From Litchfieldia sinesaloumensis (GTDB lineage: Bacteria; Bacillota; Bacilli; Bacillales; Bacillaceae_L): 64,000 nucleotides of DNA. A program made the position numbers and the translations under genes. The notes beneath the pieces are model-generated. The model ran no database searches. It was not told where the DNA came from and saw only the letters and a list, made by a program, of their open reading frames with translations. This document shows, piece after piece, positions 9,843-41,518 of the stretch; position 1 is the first letter of the stretch; each line of letters opens with the position of its first letter. Location: contig NZ_LT732529.1 of assembly GCF_900156865.1 (NCBI RefSeq), positions 1,143,784-1,207,783 of the forward strand, read 5' to 3'.

Positions 9843-9869
9843 AAAAAAGATGCCCAAAAAGGACATCTT
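9843..9869 (-). terminator. Terminator of the selB-selW operon
   Basis: On the minus strand AAGATGTCC, a TTTTT loop and GGGCATCTT are followed by a T-run (9848-9843). It begins 2 bases after the stop of the SelW-like gene, which supports reading that gene through its UGA to 9871. Confidence 0.8.
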
Positions 9870-9870
9870 A

Positions 9871-10104
9871 TTATGCTTGTTCCATCGATGAAATGATTTC
9901 TTCCGGTGTTGGGAATCTCCCAAGTTCTTTCTTTGAGAAAATCTTCTCCCCATTTACAGTTACTTCAAACACTCCGCCTGAGGCAGGGATAAGCTCGAAG
10001 GTAGTGATAGTTTGTCTGTAATGAGTTAATAGTTGTTCCGCAAGACCTGCGGCTTTAGGTGCATAGTTTCACTGCATGCAAAACTCGATTGATACGTTGT
10101 ACAT
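9871..10104 (-). CDS. SelW/SelT-type Rdx selenoprotein with in-frame UGA
   Basis: Reading through a UGA at 10069-10071 gives a 77-residue protein starting MYNVSIEFCMQU, with Sec at residue 12 in a C-x-x-U redox motif. The fold and the following NYAPKAAGLAEQLL segment match the Rdx family (SelW/SelT/SelH), thioredoxin-like proteins; GGVFEVTVNGEKIFSKKELGRFP is the typical second half. The ATG follows AGGAGG, which overlaps the selB stop 13 bases upstream. A SECIS-like hairpin lies 16 bases after the UGA. A frameshift-free reading on both sides of the UGA, translational coupling to selB and a terminator right after the stop make a pseudogene unlikely. Confidence 0.9.
10038..10052 (-). promoter_or_regulatory. 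Bacterial SECIS hairpin of the SelW-like gene
   Basis: On the minus strand CCGCA-GGTCT-TGCGG forms a 5-base-pair stem with loop GGTCT, 16 bases after the UGA (21 to the loop). This resembles the E. coli fdhF SECIS apical region GCAGGTCTGC, where SelB binds, and fits the known spacing and the rule of a guanine at the start of the loop. Confidence 0.8.
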
Positions 10105-10117
10105 TTGTTAAAACCTC

Positions 10118-11989
10118 CTAATGTTTTATCCACACTCGATTCCCTTCTTCCCGTTTCGTTAATTTTAGATAATCAAGTAACTCTAAGAAAGGAATGAGGT
10201 ATTTACGAGAAAGTCCTAGTATTTCTTTTGCCTCTGATACGCTAAAACGATTATTTGTTGTCTTTTTTAACTTGTTAATCGCATGATCAAAGGCTTCTTT
10301 ATGTATCAACGTTTCTTCATTAAGTAAGTATGCTTGATTCGTTTTTAATAAATACGTTTTAAGCTCATTTGATGCTTGGTTCGAAATGGATGCTTCTTTT
10401 ATATAATCTCCCCATTTTTGGGGTTGTATGCCGTCATTTATAAGTGATGAAACAATGGTCTTCATTTGTCCATCTAGAAGGCTTGGGATAAAGTTGTATA
10501 GCGATAAATACTGTTCTTCTTTCTTCATATCGTTATTTTGTAATCGTTCATTGATGCAATATTCAATCAGACCTTTCGGGTGACCAAGTACTTGAAGAAG
10601 TTCGGCTTTACTGATACCTATTCGTAATGGAAATTTGTTGTGATAATTCTGTACGGTTTTCAGGATATCCTCATTTACTTCAGAGATAGAGCGTTTTGAA
10701 CTATAGGTATTCTCTTGAATATGGATATAATCACCCGTTGTTAAAATCTCTAGAACTTCATCCTCCTGAAGTGATGAAAGCTGGGTAAGTTGCAGCTTGG
10801 ATAATAGCTGATGGGTTTCTAGCAAATCATCAATAATCTCGGATGGTGAACGTTCCATTTGTTTTTTGAGCCTATTAATAGTTTCGACACCGAAACGGTA
10901 TTTTCCTGCAAGTGGCTGAATAATCCAGCCCCCACCTAGTGTTTCTACAGGTGTAGGCCTTCGTAAAATAAATCTGTCTCCTCGTCGAACGACAATTTCG
11001 TCTTCTAACTGAATCTGACAGACTATTTCCTCAGTAGTTTCTTGTACTTCATTCCGATCAAAGAAGACAATTTTACCGAAAGCCTCTGTGGTGCCAACAT
11101 GTAACTTGACTGGTGAACGCTGTTTAAGCGGCATTGATAGTGGCGAAACAAGTTGAAGCGAAATATCAATGGTGCGAGTAACTTGAAAATTTTTGGAATC
11201 AACTAGCACGTCCCCTCTTTTTATTTCCTCTTTTGCAACTCCCGTAATATTTAGAGCAGTTCGCTGTCCTGCCTGCGCTTTTTCAGTGTCTTGATTATGT
11301 ACCTGAATTTGTCTGACTTTCACCCTTTTACCTAATGGTAAGATTGTCAACTGACTTTCTTTAGAAACCCTACCCTCAAAAATCGTTCCCCTGACAATCG
11401 TTCCATGCCCCTGAACGGTAAAGGCCTGGTCAATTGGTAGGCGAAACGAGCCGTTAGTATCTTTTTGTGTTAGGTCCTCTATCTCCTTTTGAATAGCTAG
11501 TTTAAGTTCTGGTATACCTATTCCTGTTAGACTGTCTATAAATAGAATAGGTGCCTCCTTAAAGTCTGATTCAGCTAGTAGCTCTTTAATTTCTTCGACT
11601 GCAAGTTGTAGTAACTCATCCTCAACTCTTTCAATCTTTGAAACGACTACGAGACATTTTTTGATACCTAAGAAATTCAATATTTGGAGGTGTTCTTTTG
11701 TTTGTGGCATAACCCCTTCATCTCCTGCAATGACAAGCATGACAAGGTCAATACCGGCGACACCTGCAATCATTTGCCTAATAAAACGCTCATGTCCAGG
11801 CACATCGACAATGGAAGCATGAACCCCATTGTCTAGTAGTAGTGGTGCAAAACCAGGCTCAATCGAGATGTTTCGTTCCTTCTCTTCCTTTAACCGGTCG
11901 GTATCAACCCCTGTTAACGCCTTCGTAAGTGTCGTTTTACCATGATCAATATGTCCGGCCATTCCAATCGTATAAAAAACATCAGCCAT
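10118..11989 (-). CDS. selB: Selenocysteine-specific elongation factor SelB
   Basis: A 623-residue translation factor that brings Sec-tRNA to UGA codons by binding the SECIS hairpin. The N-terminal GTPase domain has GHIDHGKTTL (P-loop), DVPGHERF (G3) and VSKIE in place of NKxD; EF-Tu-like beta-barrel domains follow, and the C-terminal ~200 residues form the winged helices that bind RNA. It forms an operon with the downstream selenoprotein (13-base gap) and is divergent from selC-selD. Confidence 0.96.
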   Translation of the reverse strand: MADVFYTIGMAGHIDHGKTTLTKALTGVDTDRLKEEKERNISIEPGFAPLLLDNGVHASIVDVPGHERFIRQMIAGVAGIDLVMLVIAGDEGVMPQTKEHLQILNFLGIKKCLVVVSKIERVEDELLQLAVEEIKELLAESDFKEAPILFIDSLTGIGIPELKLAIQKEIEDLTQKDTNGSFRLPIDQAFTVQGHGTIVRGTIFEGRVSKESQLTILPLGKRVKVRQIQVHNQDTEKAQAGQRTALNITGVAKEEIKRGDVLVDSKNFQVTRTIDISLQLVSPLSMPLKQRSPVKLHVGTTEAFGKIVFFDRNEVQETTEEIVCQIQLEDEIVVRRGDRFILRRPTPVETLGGGWIIQPLAGKYRFGVETINRLKKQMERSPSEIIDDLLETHQLLSKLQLTQLSSLQEDEVLEILTTGDYIHIQENTYSSKRSISEVNEDILKTVQNYHNKFPLRIGISKAELLQVLGHPKGLIEYCINERLQNNDMKKEEQYLSLYNFIPSLLDGQMKTIVSSLINDGIQPQKWGDYIKEASISNQASNELKTYLLKTNQAYLLNEETLIHKEAFDHAINKLKKTTNNRFSVSEAKEILGLSRKYLIPFLELLDYLKLTKREEGNRVWIKH

Positions 11990-12119: not shown

Positions 12120-12216
12120 GGGGTTGGCTGGGTGACTGGTGTCCCCCTGGGTCTTCAAAACCCTGAGGGAGGCGCGTGTCGTCTCCGGTGGGTTCGATTC
12201 CCACACAGTCCCGCCA
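12120..12216 (+). tRNA. selC: tRNA-Sec (anticodon UCA)
   Basis: A 97-base type II tRNA. The anticodon loop CTTCAAA carries TCA at 12155-12157. GTGGG-TTCGATT-CCCAC is the T arm, and ACAGTCCC-G-CCA forms the 3' acceptor strand with encoded CCA. A long variable arm (GGAGGC with GTCTCC) and an 8-base acceptor strand are Sec-tRNA hallmarks. The 5' strand GGGGTTGG pairs with two wobbles and a terminal mismatch, and the D stem (GGTGAC with GTCCCC) has one mismatch. It sits between selB and selD. Confidence 0.92.
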
Positions 12217-12270: not shown

Positions 12271-13323
12271 ATGTCTAAAAAGGAAGAAATCATTAAATTG
12301 ACCTCCCTTTCTACAAAAGCTGGCTGAGGATGCAAAATCGGTCCTGAGGACCTGACGCAGGTTCTGCGTCATTTACCAAAAGCTACGCCAAATCCAAATT
12401 TATTAGTTGGTCTTGATACGCCTGATGATGCGGGTGTTTATAAAATTAATGATGAAATTGCGCTTGTACAAACATTGGACTTTTTCACCCCAATCGTTGA
12501 TGACCCGTATATGTTCGGTCAGATTGCGGCTGCTAATGCTTTGAGTGATGTCTATGCTATGGGCGGAAAACCGATTACGGTAATGAACATCGTCGCCTTC
12601 CCTATTAATACATTAGACAAAAGTATTTTAGCCGAAATTCTAGCGGGTGCTGCTGAAAAAGTAAGTGAATCAGGTGCTTCACTAGTTGGTGGTCACTCCA
12701 TCGATGACAAAGAACCAAAATTCGGGTTATCTGTAACCGGTACGGTTCATCCATCACGAATTAGGGCTAATGCGGGAGCGAAGCCTGGTGATCGTCTCAT
12801 TCTCACAAAACCTATCGGAGTTGGGATTTTGACAACTGCGATTAAAAGAGATCTTCTAGATCAAGAGGATATCAAGAAAGTAACTGACGTTATGGCAACA
12901 TTGAATAAAAAAGCAGCTGAGGTAATGGAACATTATCATGTTCATGCCTGTACAGATGTAACGGGGTTCGGTCTCCTTGGGCATGCAATGGAGATGGCTG
13001 AAGGTAGTCATGTCGGAATCACGATTCATTATGAAAATGTCCCAGTTCTCCCAAAAACAAAAGAACTGGCTGAACAAAAGGTAGTTCCCGGTGGTACAAA
13101 GAAAAATCATGCATGGTTAGCAGATCGAGTGGAGTATAGTTCCAATTTAGATGAATTGGATCAACTCATTCTATGTGATGCGATCACATCTGGTGGACTT
13201 CTACTATCAATTCCGGAAAATGAAGTTGAGAAAATGCTACAAGAGCTACATAAAAACAATGTAGACGCTCGTATAATTGGTGAAGTAACTAGTGAAAATC
13301 CTGGATTCATTATGGTTATTTAA
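12271..13323 (+). CDS. selD: Selenide, water dikinase (selenophosphate synthase), itself a selenoprotein
   Basis: A 350-residue SelD that uses ATP and selenide to make selenophosphate, the selenium donor for Sec-tRNA. The catalytic position is an in-frame UGA at 12325-12327 (Sec19) in KAG-U-GCKIGP; E. coli has cysteine there. The downstream part carries LVGGHSIDD and DVTGFGLLGH. The ATG at 12271 has GGAAGGA 9 bases upstream. Without Sec decoding the gene looks like a 62-codon ORF followed by a truncated SelD starting at 12475. It follows tRNA-Sec by 54 bases and is probably cotranscribed with it. Confidence 0.95.
12353..12371 (+). promoter_or_regulatory. Bacterial SECIS hairpin of selD
   Basis: TGACGCAG-GTT-CTGCGTCA forms an 8-base-pair stem 25 bases after the UGA (33 to the loop). 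Its core CGCAGGTTCTGCG differs from the SelW-like gene's CGCAGGTCTTGCG by only two pyrimidines. A second small hairpin, GGTCC-TGA-GGACC at 12340-12352, lies between it and the UGA and is the alternative candidate. Confidence 0.7.
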
Positions 13324-13346: not shown

Positions 13347-13397
13347 AGATTGTTGGGAAATAATAACTTTTATAAAATAAACAAACGAGGTGTTTTT

Positions 13398-14285
13398 TTG
13401 ATTACTAGAAATATACGTTCACTCTTATTCGTTCTTATCCTAGTTCTTGCGGGATGTGGTTCGAATACTACTGACGAGAATAATGAGAGTGAAACTTTTA
13501 CAATTGGAGTCATTCCTGTGCAAACTGTCGGCGAAATGGAGACAGCTATGGATAAACTTCAATCCCTCTTAACAACTGAATTAGAACGTGAAGTTTCTGT
13601 CGATGTCTACCCTGATTATAACGGTGTAGTAGAGGCAATGAATTATGACAAGATTGATATGGCATACTTTGGTCCATTAACGTATGTCGTGGCTAATGAA
13701 AAAAGTGGCGCAAAAGCCATTATAACGCAATTGATTGATGGTGAACCCTTTTATCATTCGTATATCATTACACATAAAGATAGTCCTTTAGATTCACTAG
13801 AAGATCTGGTAGCACATTCAGGTGAAATTGACTTTGCTTTTGGAGATATCAATTCAACATCAGGCTCCCTCATCCCAGCTATTGAATTACAGGATCAGGG
13901 TGTTTTTACATCCGAGGATGAACATGAGTTTAAATCTGTTCGGTATACCGGATCTCATGATGCAACTGCATTGGCAGTTCAGAATCAACAAGTAAGTGCT
14001 GGTGCCATCGATAGTGCAATCTATAATCAGCTAGTTGAAGCTGGAAAAGTAGACGGTACCCTCTTTAAAACAATCTGGCAATCGGAAAAATTATTCCAAT
14101 ATCCATGGGCAGTACATAAGAATACAGACGATGAAACCATCCAAAAACTAAAAAGTGCTTTCTTAGCGATTGATGATGAAGAAATACTATCGGCATTTGG
14201 AGCAAATGGCTTCACAGAAGCAAGTGATAAGGATTACGAAAGCATTAGACAAGCGGCAATCAAACAAGGAATTATCAATGAATAG
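13398..14285 (+). CDS. PhnD-type substrate-binding lipoprotein, candidate selenium-oxyanion binder
   Basis: A 295-residue lipoprotein. The signal peptide ends in the lipobox LAGC (around residues 18-21), then a PhnD-family binding fold (FTIGVIPVQTVGEMETAMDKL, MAYFGPLTYVVA, INSTSGSLIPAIEL). The family binds phosphonate, phosphite and similar anions. A PhnD subfamily found beside selenium genes has been named a putative selenate binding protein in NCBI/TIGRFAM (recalled, not checked). Its place 75 bases after selD suits that. TTG at 13398 is the start, with GAGGTG 7 bases upstream. Confidence 0.8.
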   Translation: MITRNIRSLLFVLILVLAGCGSNTTDENNESETFTIGVIPVQTVGEMETAMDKLQSLLTTELEREVSVDVYPDYNGVVEAMNYDKIDMAYFGPLTYVVANEKSGAKAIITQLIDGEPFYHSYIITHKDSPLDSLEDLVAHSGEIDFAFGDINSTSGSLIPAIELQDQGVFTSEDEHEFKSVRYTGSHDATALAVQNQQVSAGAIDSAIYNQLVEAGKVDGTLFKTIWQSEKLFQYPWAVHKNTDDETIQKLKSAFLAIDDEEILSAFGANGFTEASDKDYESIRQAAIKQGIINE

Positions 14286-14296
14286 AGCTGATTTTC

Positions 14297-15052
14297 ATGT
14301 GGTTTAAACGAACTACCCTAACAATTGTAGTTCTATTAGGTATTGCGATTTACTTTAGTATGAGATTAACTGAATTTGATTTATCAAAATTCCGTGATTT
14401 TCGAAATATGATTGATTTTCTATCCCAATGGTTTCCTATGGATTTTTCAGCATTGCCCCGGATGCTTATAGATAGTGCTGAAACACTTGCGATGGCGTTT
14501 TTAGGAAGCTTATTTGGATTAATCATTGCATTACCAATCAGCTTTCTTGCTGCAAAAAACACATCGCCATCTCGCATTATTTTTAATGTAGTTCGTATTA
14601 TTATGAGCTTTGTTCGGTCAATTCCGGAAATTGTATTCGGATTAATTTTATTAACGGCTCTAGGGTTAGGCCCTTTCCCTGCTGTCTTAGCCATTATGTT
14701 TCATAATATTGGGGTACTAGGAAAACTCATTTCTGAACTGATTGAATCAGCTGATTCTGGTCCACATGAAGCAATGAAAGCGGTCGGTTCAAAGAATTGG
14801 TTGGCATCCTTGTTTAGCATCCTTCCACAGATATGGCCTAATGTGTTATCCCAATATTTTTATCGTTTTGAGGTTGCCATTCGAACCTCCCTCATTCTTG
14901 GTTTTATTGGTGGCGGTGGAATTGGACAGCGTCTATTTAATGATTTTAAAAGCTTTCAATACTCATCTGTTTCATTGGACGTTTTACTGATTATGTTGAT
15001 AGTCATCATAGTAGACTCGTTTGGAAGCTTTGTTCGGAATAAAGTGATTTAA
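14297..15052 (+). CDS. PhnE-type ABC transporter permease
   Basis: A 251-residue inner-membrane permease with about six hydrophobic segments and the EAA-like loop EAMKAVGSKNWLASLFSILPQIWP that contacts the ATPase. It belongs to the phosphonate/phosphite PhnE family. It lies 11 bases after the binding-protein gene and 13 bases before the ATPase gene, so the three form one transporter. Substrate is unproven; selenium oxyanion is inferred from the neighbouring sel genes. Confidence 0.85.
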   Translation: MWFKRTTLTIVVLLGIAIYFSMRLTEFDLSKFRDFRNMIDFLSQWFPMDFSALPRMLIDSAETLAMAFLGSLFGLIIALPISFLAAKNTSPSRIIFNVVRIIMSFVRSIPEIVFGLILLTALGLGPFPAVLAIMFHNIGVLGKLISELIESADSGPHEAMKAVGSKNWLASLFSILPQIWPNVLSQYFYRFEVAIRTSLILGFIGGGGIGQRLFNDFKSFQYSSVSLDVLLIMLIVIIVDSFGSFVRNKVI

Positions 15053-15065
15053 TGGGGGTTGTTTC

Positions 15066-15803
15066 ATGATTCAATTAAAGGATGTTTCGGTCTATTATCC
15101 GAATACAGAAATTCCGGCTCTACATTCAATAAATCTCAGCTTTGATGAGGGTGAATTTATTTGTGTACTAGGCAAAAGTGGTGCCGGTAAATCCACTCTT
15201 ATTAGATGTATGAATGGCCTACAACAACCATCAACAGGCGAAGTGTATTGGGATGGTCAACCATTGGCCCAAAAAAATAATGAACAACAGCGTCTTGTTC
15301 GAAGAGAAATCGGAATGATTTTTCAGCATTTTAACCTTATCCCCCGCTTGACGGTTTTACAGAACGCATTAACAGGCATGTTTGGCTATCGGAGTTCCCT
15401 GAAAAATCTCCTTGGGATATTTTCTAGAGAGGAAATTGAAACCGCCAAACGTATTTTGGGTGTGGTCGGTCTTACAGAATTAGAGCATCGTCGAGTTGAA
15501 TATTTAAGTGGTGGTCAAAAGCAACGTGTTGGAATTGCACGTGCTTTATTGCAAAGGCCTCGTGTTTTCTTAGGCGATGAACCTGTTGCAAGCTTAGATC
15601 CAGGCACTTCAAATCGCATCATATCATTATTAAAGGAATTACATGAACGTCATAACCTCTTATCTGTGATGAATCTGCATGATGTGGAACTTGCGAAACG
15701 ATTTGCCTCAAGAATCATTGCATTAAAAGATGGGGTCGTTATCTTTGACGGGAATCCGCAGGAGTTTACAACAGATTTGTTTGAAGAAACGTATAACAAA
15801 TGA
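15066..15803 (+). CDS. PhnC-type ABC transporter ATP-binding protein
   Basis: A 245-residue ATPase with Walker A GKSGAGKST, Q-loop region IFQHFNLIPRLTVLQNALTG, signature LSGGQKQR, Walker B FLGDEP and the switch histidine in MNLHDVELAK. It is closest in form to PhnC and powers the PhnD/PhnE-type transporter encoded directly upstream. The gene order binding protein, permease, ATPase differs from the phnCDE order. Confidence 0.9.
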   Translation: MIQLKDVSVYYPNTEIPALHSINLSFDEGEFICVLGKSGAGKSTLIRCMNGLQQPSTGEVYWDGQPLAQKNNEQQRLVRREIGMIFQHFNLIPRLTVLQNALTGMFGYRSSLKNLLGIFSREEIETAKRILGVVGLTELEHRRVEYLSGGQKQRVGIARALLQRPRVFLGDEPVASLDPGTSNRIISLLKELHERHNLLSVMNLHDVELAKRFASRIIALKDGVVIFDGNPQEFTTDLFEETYNK

Positions 15804-37087: not shown

Positions 37088-37214
37088 CCTCCATCTTCTC
37101 CCATCCAGACTATACTGTCGGCTTTGGAATCGCACCAAATCCTGCCTTGCGGCTCGCGGGCTTAGAGAAATAATCTCATCACCGCCGGTCGGGATTTTCA
37201 CCCGGCCCCGAAGA
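37088..37214 (-). ncRNA. FMN riboswitch (RFN element)
   Basis: On the minus strand the conserved blocks are CTTCGGGGCCGGGTGAAA, CCCGACCGGCGGTGAT, AGCCCGCGAGCC, GATTTGGTGCGATTCC, AAGCCGACAGTATAGTC and GGATGGGAGAAGATGGAGG. With the terminator before ribU it turns transcription off when FMN is present. Confidence 0.96.
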
Positions 37215-37337
37215 TAGATCAATATTTAGTTTCACTTTATTTTATCAAGTTTAAGGGATATTGTGAAGTAATTTGTTTTAAATCGTCTAATCATCAAACA
37301 ATACCCCTACTAACCAATGAAAATGGGCAGCAAATAC

Positions 37338-41306: not shown

Positions 41307-41337
41307 AGGTATCAAGAAAAAATGGAAGGTTTCCACT

Positions 41338-41430
41338 CTACTTTCCTCCGCCGGTATTAGCCGGATCAGGTCCAAAGGGTTAAAAAACGTCCGTTTTTCT
41401 CTCAGCCCAATTGGGCACCCCTAGTAGTTT
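41338..41430 (-). ncRNA. TPP riboswitch (THI element)
   Basis: On the minus strand the conserved CTAGGGGTGCCC, GGGCTGAGA, ACCCTTTGGACCTGATCC and GGCTAATACCGGCGGAGGAA blocks are all present. With the downstream terminator, thiamine pyrophosphate should switch off the SDR-thiW operon. Confidence 0.96.
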
Positions 41431-41518
41431 GCGAATATTCTATTTATAAGCATAGTCTGTTCTTATCTAATTGTAAAGAAATTTAATTAGTAGACTTCTC
41501 ATATGTAGTGTCCTAGCC

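Follow-up and report, generated by a model that had tools for sequence, protein, structure and literature searches.

Directly behind selB, in the 64,000-nucleotide stretch of DNA analysed here (the window), lies a gene, designated selW, which we hold with very little doubt to encode a SelW-like selenoprotein of the Rdx family (PF10262), in which selenocysteine (Sec) would be inserted at a UGA at codon 12 by means of SelB, tRNA-Sec, and a downstream hairpin, giving a redox protein of 77 residues. The basis of this reading is family membership, conservation of the UGA, a constrained hairpin, purifying selection, and a complete Sec apparatus. selW belongs to an already known selenoprotein family, of which it is a genuine and well-conserved representative, and is not a novelty.

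The selW reading frame and conservation of its UGA

The frame occupies positions 9871..10104 of the window (stop codon included) on the minus strand, running from 10104 to 9871; the strand was left unstated in the earlier note on this DNA. Translation with TGA as U yields 77 residues (MYNVSIEFCMQUNYAPKAAGLAEQ...MEQA) with Sec at residue 12, followed by TAA; after MYNVSIEFCMQU the product continues NYAPKAAGLAEQ... The in-frame UGA, part of a C-x-x-U motif, lies at 10069..10071 (minus strand). An AGGAGG ribosome-binding site at 10114..10119 (minus strand, read 10119..10114) overlaps the TAG stop codon of selB, with 13 bases between this stop codon and the selW ATG, or 16 when counted from the first base of the stop. 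Behind selW, a terminator-like hairpin with a T run is present at 9847..9869 (minus strand, read 9869..9847), a call that is a consensus match only, with four such sites in 2551 bases compared to 2.3 in shuffled sequences. The earlier note had proposed a 77-residue Rdx-family frame with an in-frame UGA at CMQU, an AGGAGG at its start overlapping the selB stop, a frame intact on both sides of the UGA, and a terminator after the real stop; translation with TGA as U and the family profiles bear out the frame, the sequence confirms the AGGAGG, coding constraint is seen on both sides of the UGA (the upstream side comprising 11 codons only), and the terminator stands as a consensus match. A patatin-like phospholipase gene (PF01734; 8850-9776, minus strand) directly follows selW.

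The selW product matches PF10262 (Rdx) with an E-value of 1.6e-23 and 83.1 bits (cut-off 22.6), covering positions 1-71 of 74. Its best NCBIfam match is NF041051 (SelTWH_Campy; 95.3 bits, cut-off 88), and TIGR02174 (CXXU_selWTH) is likewise exceeded (72.7 bits, cut-off 34.2). The N-terminal CxxC/CxxU redox motif of the Rdx/SelW family is present, and in the three printed alignments to Cys homologues of solved structure (PDB 3dex, 2fa8, and 2obk), C9-M-Q-U12 aligns to CTQC. The Cys homologues thus place their CxxC on C9 and U12, the alignment across the UGA that the earlier note had predicted. Based on homology to these structures and on the family fold, which we take to be thioredoxin-like, the selW product is itself presumably thioredoxin-like, and the C9-U12 pair most likely carries out thiol/selenol redox chemistry.

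Matches to selW were found in 5 of 9 genomes of the genus and 13 of 17 genomes of the family; at the level of the order, an even sample of 397 genomes gave matches in 165, spread over 61 of 135 genera. An in-frame TGA lies within every one of these 165 matches, this total being two listings joined by sort order, the first ending at 5.2e-31 and the second comprising 15 genomes whose best E-values are weaker. In 120 of these genomes the TGA is known as lying inside the match, with its position unplaced, except for those also found among the named loci. The TGA sits at CxxU in all 80 named loci (the best 80 of 242 confirmed places, some of them from the same genomes as the order sample) and in all 56 unnamed selW loci examined, from 45 genomes (54 by pattern and 2 by eye). 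No Cys form of selW was seen among the 165 matches of the order; because the searches read through stops, Cys forms would also have turned up. One match (G230) additionally contains a TAA inside the aligned stretch.

Four pairwise comparisons within the genus gave dN/dS values of 0.06-0.16 after the UGA, and the coding sequence beyond this codon is therefore under purifying selection. Values before the UGA were 0.02-0.12 in four genus pairs, which is weak evidence because there are fewer than five synonymous sites there (about 4.5-4.8). A conserved stop at the codon, or homologues failing to align across it, had been named in advance as grounds for abandoning the proposal; instead, family profiles span the UGA and all 165 matches retain the TGA. 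Taken together, the UGA in selW is almost certainly read as Sec.

The hairpin downstream of the UGA

A bacterial SECIS-type hairpin with a stem of five pairs and the loop GGUCU (CCGCA-GGUCU-UGCGG; 10038..10052, minus strand) starts 16 bases after the UGA, where the earlier note had placed a SECIS-like hairpin; it is present and constrained across 98 distinct sequences. Taken by itself, the fold of this one sequence lacks significance (z -0.47, equalled by 63 of 200 shuffles) and could not carry the case for the hairpin; single-sequence folding was dropped as proof of a SECIS in favour of covariation. A total of 112 loci were tried, of which 110 rows, together with the window, gave the 98 distinct sequences; the hairpins of two loci missed by the text pattern (L128 and L156, both with TGA at CxxU) are outside this count.

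Stem pairs are formed in all 490 cells (five pairs in 98 distinct sequences), and shifting the partner by 1-3 columns reduces pairing to 20-59%. Double-sided changes occupy 46 of the 490 cells compared to a shuffled mean of 9.7, with none of 500 shuffles as high, and the covariation score is 0.312 versus a shuffled mean of 0.162. Two of the five covariation measures do not beat shuffles: three pairs show a double change, a number reached in 161 of 500 shuffles, and four pair types occur, a number reached in 500 of 500. The shuffles ignore relatedness. RNAalifold predicted this stem as well, extended by one closing pair.

Of the three variable pairs, two connect third codon positions at which the changes are synonymous (GCC/GCT with GCG/GCA, and GCG/GCA with TTC/TTT or CTC/CTT) and account for 41 of the 46 double-change cells. 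The remaining pair (5 double-sided and 3 single-sided cells) alters residues, from Ala to Val on one side and from Ala to Thr on the other. The loop has an invariant G, followed by U in 97 of 98 sequences; where Ser is encoded there (60 sequences), its codon is AGT in 60 of 60, and at other sites of the gene Ser is encoded by a mixture of codons. The hairpin is thus constrained across relatives and would represent a bacterial SECIS, with SelB as its putative binding partner. Like fdhF-type bacterial SECIS elements, it lies just 3' of the UGA within the coding sequence and has a small loop with an invariant G; it differs in its five-pair stem starting 16 bases after the UGA. Its GCAGGUCU-type loop resembles, we presume, that of E. 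coli fdhF.

The Sec apparatus and the reading of the UGA

Directly upstream of selW and on the same strand, selB (10118..11989, minus strand) encodes a Sec-specific elongation factor of 623 aa (TIGR00475, 380.9 bits, cut-off 242.25). It is accompanied by a tRNA-Sec with anticodon TCA (12120..12216, plus strand; Rfam RF01852, 62.6 bits, gathering score 47) and by selD (12271..13323, plus strand), which by translation and profile encodes a selenophosphate synthase with an in-frame UGA of its own at residue 19. SelA is encoded outside the window in the same genome (G000:C3:1081251-1082339), and the Sec apparatus (SelA, SelB, tRNA-Sec, and SelD) is consequently complete. SelB and SelA were found in all nine genomes of the genus, and a SelD match with one TGA inside in all 17 genomes of the family.

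SelB exceeds the family cut-off in 179 of 397 genomes of the order, at odds with the expectation of the earlier note that Sec use would be uncommon in Bacillaceae. Of these 397 genomes, 164 have SelB and SelW, 15 SelB only, 1 SelW only, and 217 neither; Fisher's test on this co-occurrence ignores shared ancestry. The lone genome with SelW and no SelB (G213) comprises 480 contigs according to its listing. All 80 named loci (best 80 of 242) have at least one of selA, selB, and selD within a flank of up to 6 kb, with selA in 75 and selD in 71 of these 80. At one locus (L110), selW is preceded by two successive selB-like matches (-3270..-1393 and -1134..-49, counted from selW), which may reflect a duplication of selB.

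Two other readings of the codon were weighed against Sec insertion. If the UGA were a true stop, as it is under table 11, selW would be an 11-residue leader behind selB followed by a dead or separately started coding sequence, and the unremarkable single-sequence fold of the hairpin agrees with this; purifying selection after the UGA (dN/dS 0.06-0.16 in four comparisons), family profiles that extend across it, retention of the in-frame TGA in 165 of 165 matches, and double changes maintaining three hairpin pairs, two of them at synonymous third positions, all speak against it, and we consider it highly improbable. Equally improbable is selenium-free decoding of the UGA as an ordinary residue (Trp or Cys) through suppression or an altered code. 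With UGA taken as a sense codon the frame is open, and homologues of known structure have Cys at that position, yet the genome encodes a dedicated tRNA-Sec, SelA, SelB, and a UGA-containing selD, SelB accompanies SelW in 164 of 165 SelW genomes, the hairpin downstream is constrained, and there is no TGA-less match among the 165 in the order. Both readings were rejected on this evidence of conservation, selection, hairpin, and apparatus, and the status of selW as a selenoprotein gene is settled as far as sequence can settle it.

For the preferred reading, insertion of Sec, we envisage that translation of selB leads to a coupled start on selW, and that at codon 12 the ribosome would insert Sec with the aid of SelB, tRNA-Sec, and the hairpin starting 16 bases downstream, yielding, as expected of the family, a 77-residue CxxU thiol-selenol redox protein. 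Co-transcription of selW with selB is probable, as is translational coupling between the two. The coupling claimed in the earlier note agrees with gene order in the family, where 12 of 13 loci have selB ending no more than 150 bases before selW; more widely the claim holds less well, selB ending no more than 250 bases upstream in only 17 of the 80 named loci (best 80 of 242). The tight selB-selW succession is thus mainly a habit of the family, found in some lineages only.

Relation to known SelW proteins and loss of selW

Published work already describes SelW-like selenoproteins of bacteria, notes their Sec-only habit, and, for Epsilonproteobacteria, reports that they are missing from annotation. 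In the excerpts of the sources consulted, 'Selenoprotein W like' is given for 35 organisms (PMC5029168), SelW-like proteins are listed in 10, with Cys homologues very rare or absent in organisms that contain Sec (PMC1794560), and SelW-like is tabulated as CxxU, PF10262, predicted (PMC9312934 and PMC13188914). For Epsilonproteobacteria, an excerpt of PMC4607533 states that SelW genes were missed completely by annotation and that a SECIS was predicted in all sequences but one putative SelW. The selW product shares with the SelW-like/SELENOW-like bacterial selenoproteins the Rdx family (PF10262), the CxxU motif, and the Sec-only habit, and differs in that selW stands directly behind selB in the present lineage; SelW of Campylobacter and relatives (NF041051) is its best NCBIfam match, above cut-off, and belongs to another phylum. 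Our count of 165 of 397 genomes of the order is not directly comparable to the published counts, which derive from other, earlier genome sets. A literature search combining selenocysteine, selenoproteins, and selB with Bacillaceae returned nothing. Among Bacillus relatives, both Sec decoding and SelW are widespread (in 179 and 165 of 397 genomes, respectively), and because these relatives include many named strains, the function of SelW could be tested in tractable hosts.

Four of the nine genomes of the genus (G001, G002, G004, and G006) are without selW, and selW is therefore dispensable. In G001, G002, and G006 (loci L019, L020, and L021), the patatin gene remains behind an intact selB and the interval between them has shrunk to a short spacer with terminator-like sequence, in which G001 and G002 retain what appear to be a few codons from the end of selW; G004 has selD behind selB, in opposite orientation. 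These natural deletions beside intact selB provide ready-made comparisons.

SelA, SelB, and a TGA-containing selD are kept in all four selW-less genomes. The search for other clients of the apparatus covered three selenoprotein types (formate dehydrogenase, peroxiredoxin, and HesB) in the nine genomes of the genus. Sec formate dehydrogenase and a peroxiredoxin-type (PF00578) selenoprotein were rejected as clients, with no TGA among the matches listed for the nine genomes, as was, for the window's genome, the HesB type (PF01521), for which the matches listed contain a TGA in two of the nine genomes, the window's genome not being one of them. In the four selW-less genomes, the matches listed for these three types contain no TGA. 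The HesB-like frames at loci L186 and L187 (G005 and G008) contain an in-frame UGA (GIGUGGPQLRLTLEES) that is followed by a predicted hairpin, and are probably members of the known HesB-like selenoprotein family.

A broader proposal, which we think rather unlikely, is that the Sec apparatus of the order is a small self-supporting module with SelD and SelW as core clients, persisting where SelW has been deleted mainly for the Sec in SelD, the selenophosphate going to 2-selenouridine in tRNA by way of MnmH (selenouridine synthase). MnmH is present in 14 of 15 SelB-only genomes versus 114 of 164 with SelW, a difference that is not significant (Fisher p = 0.07, ancestry ignored), and it occurs without SelB in 40 of 397 genomes of the order, so MnmH needs no Sec apparatus in general. 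On account of this p value and these 40 genomes, upkeep of the apparatus for SelD and hence for selenouridine is offered as a suggestion only. If true, the 21st amino acid would be kept alive for one enzyme serving tRNA modification; maintenance of the Sec trait by FdhA or SelD has already been proposed (PMC1794560, in excerpt).

Directly behind selD lies a phnD-phnE-phnC-type ABC transporter (13350-15803, plus strand), a candidate selenium-oxyanion importer. phnD and phnE adjoin selD in 14 of 17 genomes of the family, and phnD with at least 54% identity is found in 13 of the 80 named selW loci (best 80 of 242), with varying gene order. The PhnD-like protein scores below cut-off against both TIGR04553 (putative selenate ABC transporter substrate-binding protein; 162.7 bits, cut-off 250) and PhnD TIGR03431 (201.8, cut-off 261.1), and its closest solved structure by sequence is the phosphite-binding PtxB; no mention of phosphonate or a phosphonate ABC transporter was found among the papers listed by the literature searches. 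Elsewhere in the window, FMN and TPP riboswitches score above their gathering scores (37089-37219 and 41326-41432, respectively, both on the minus strand) and are ordinary.
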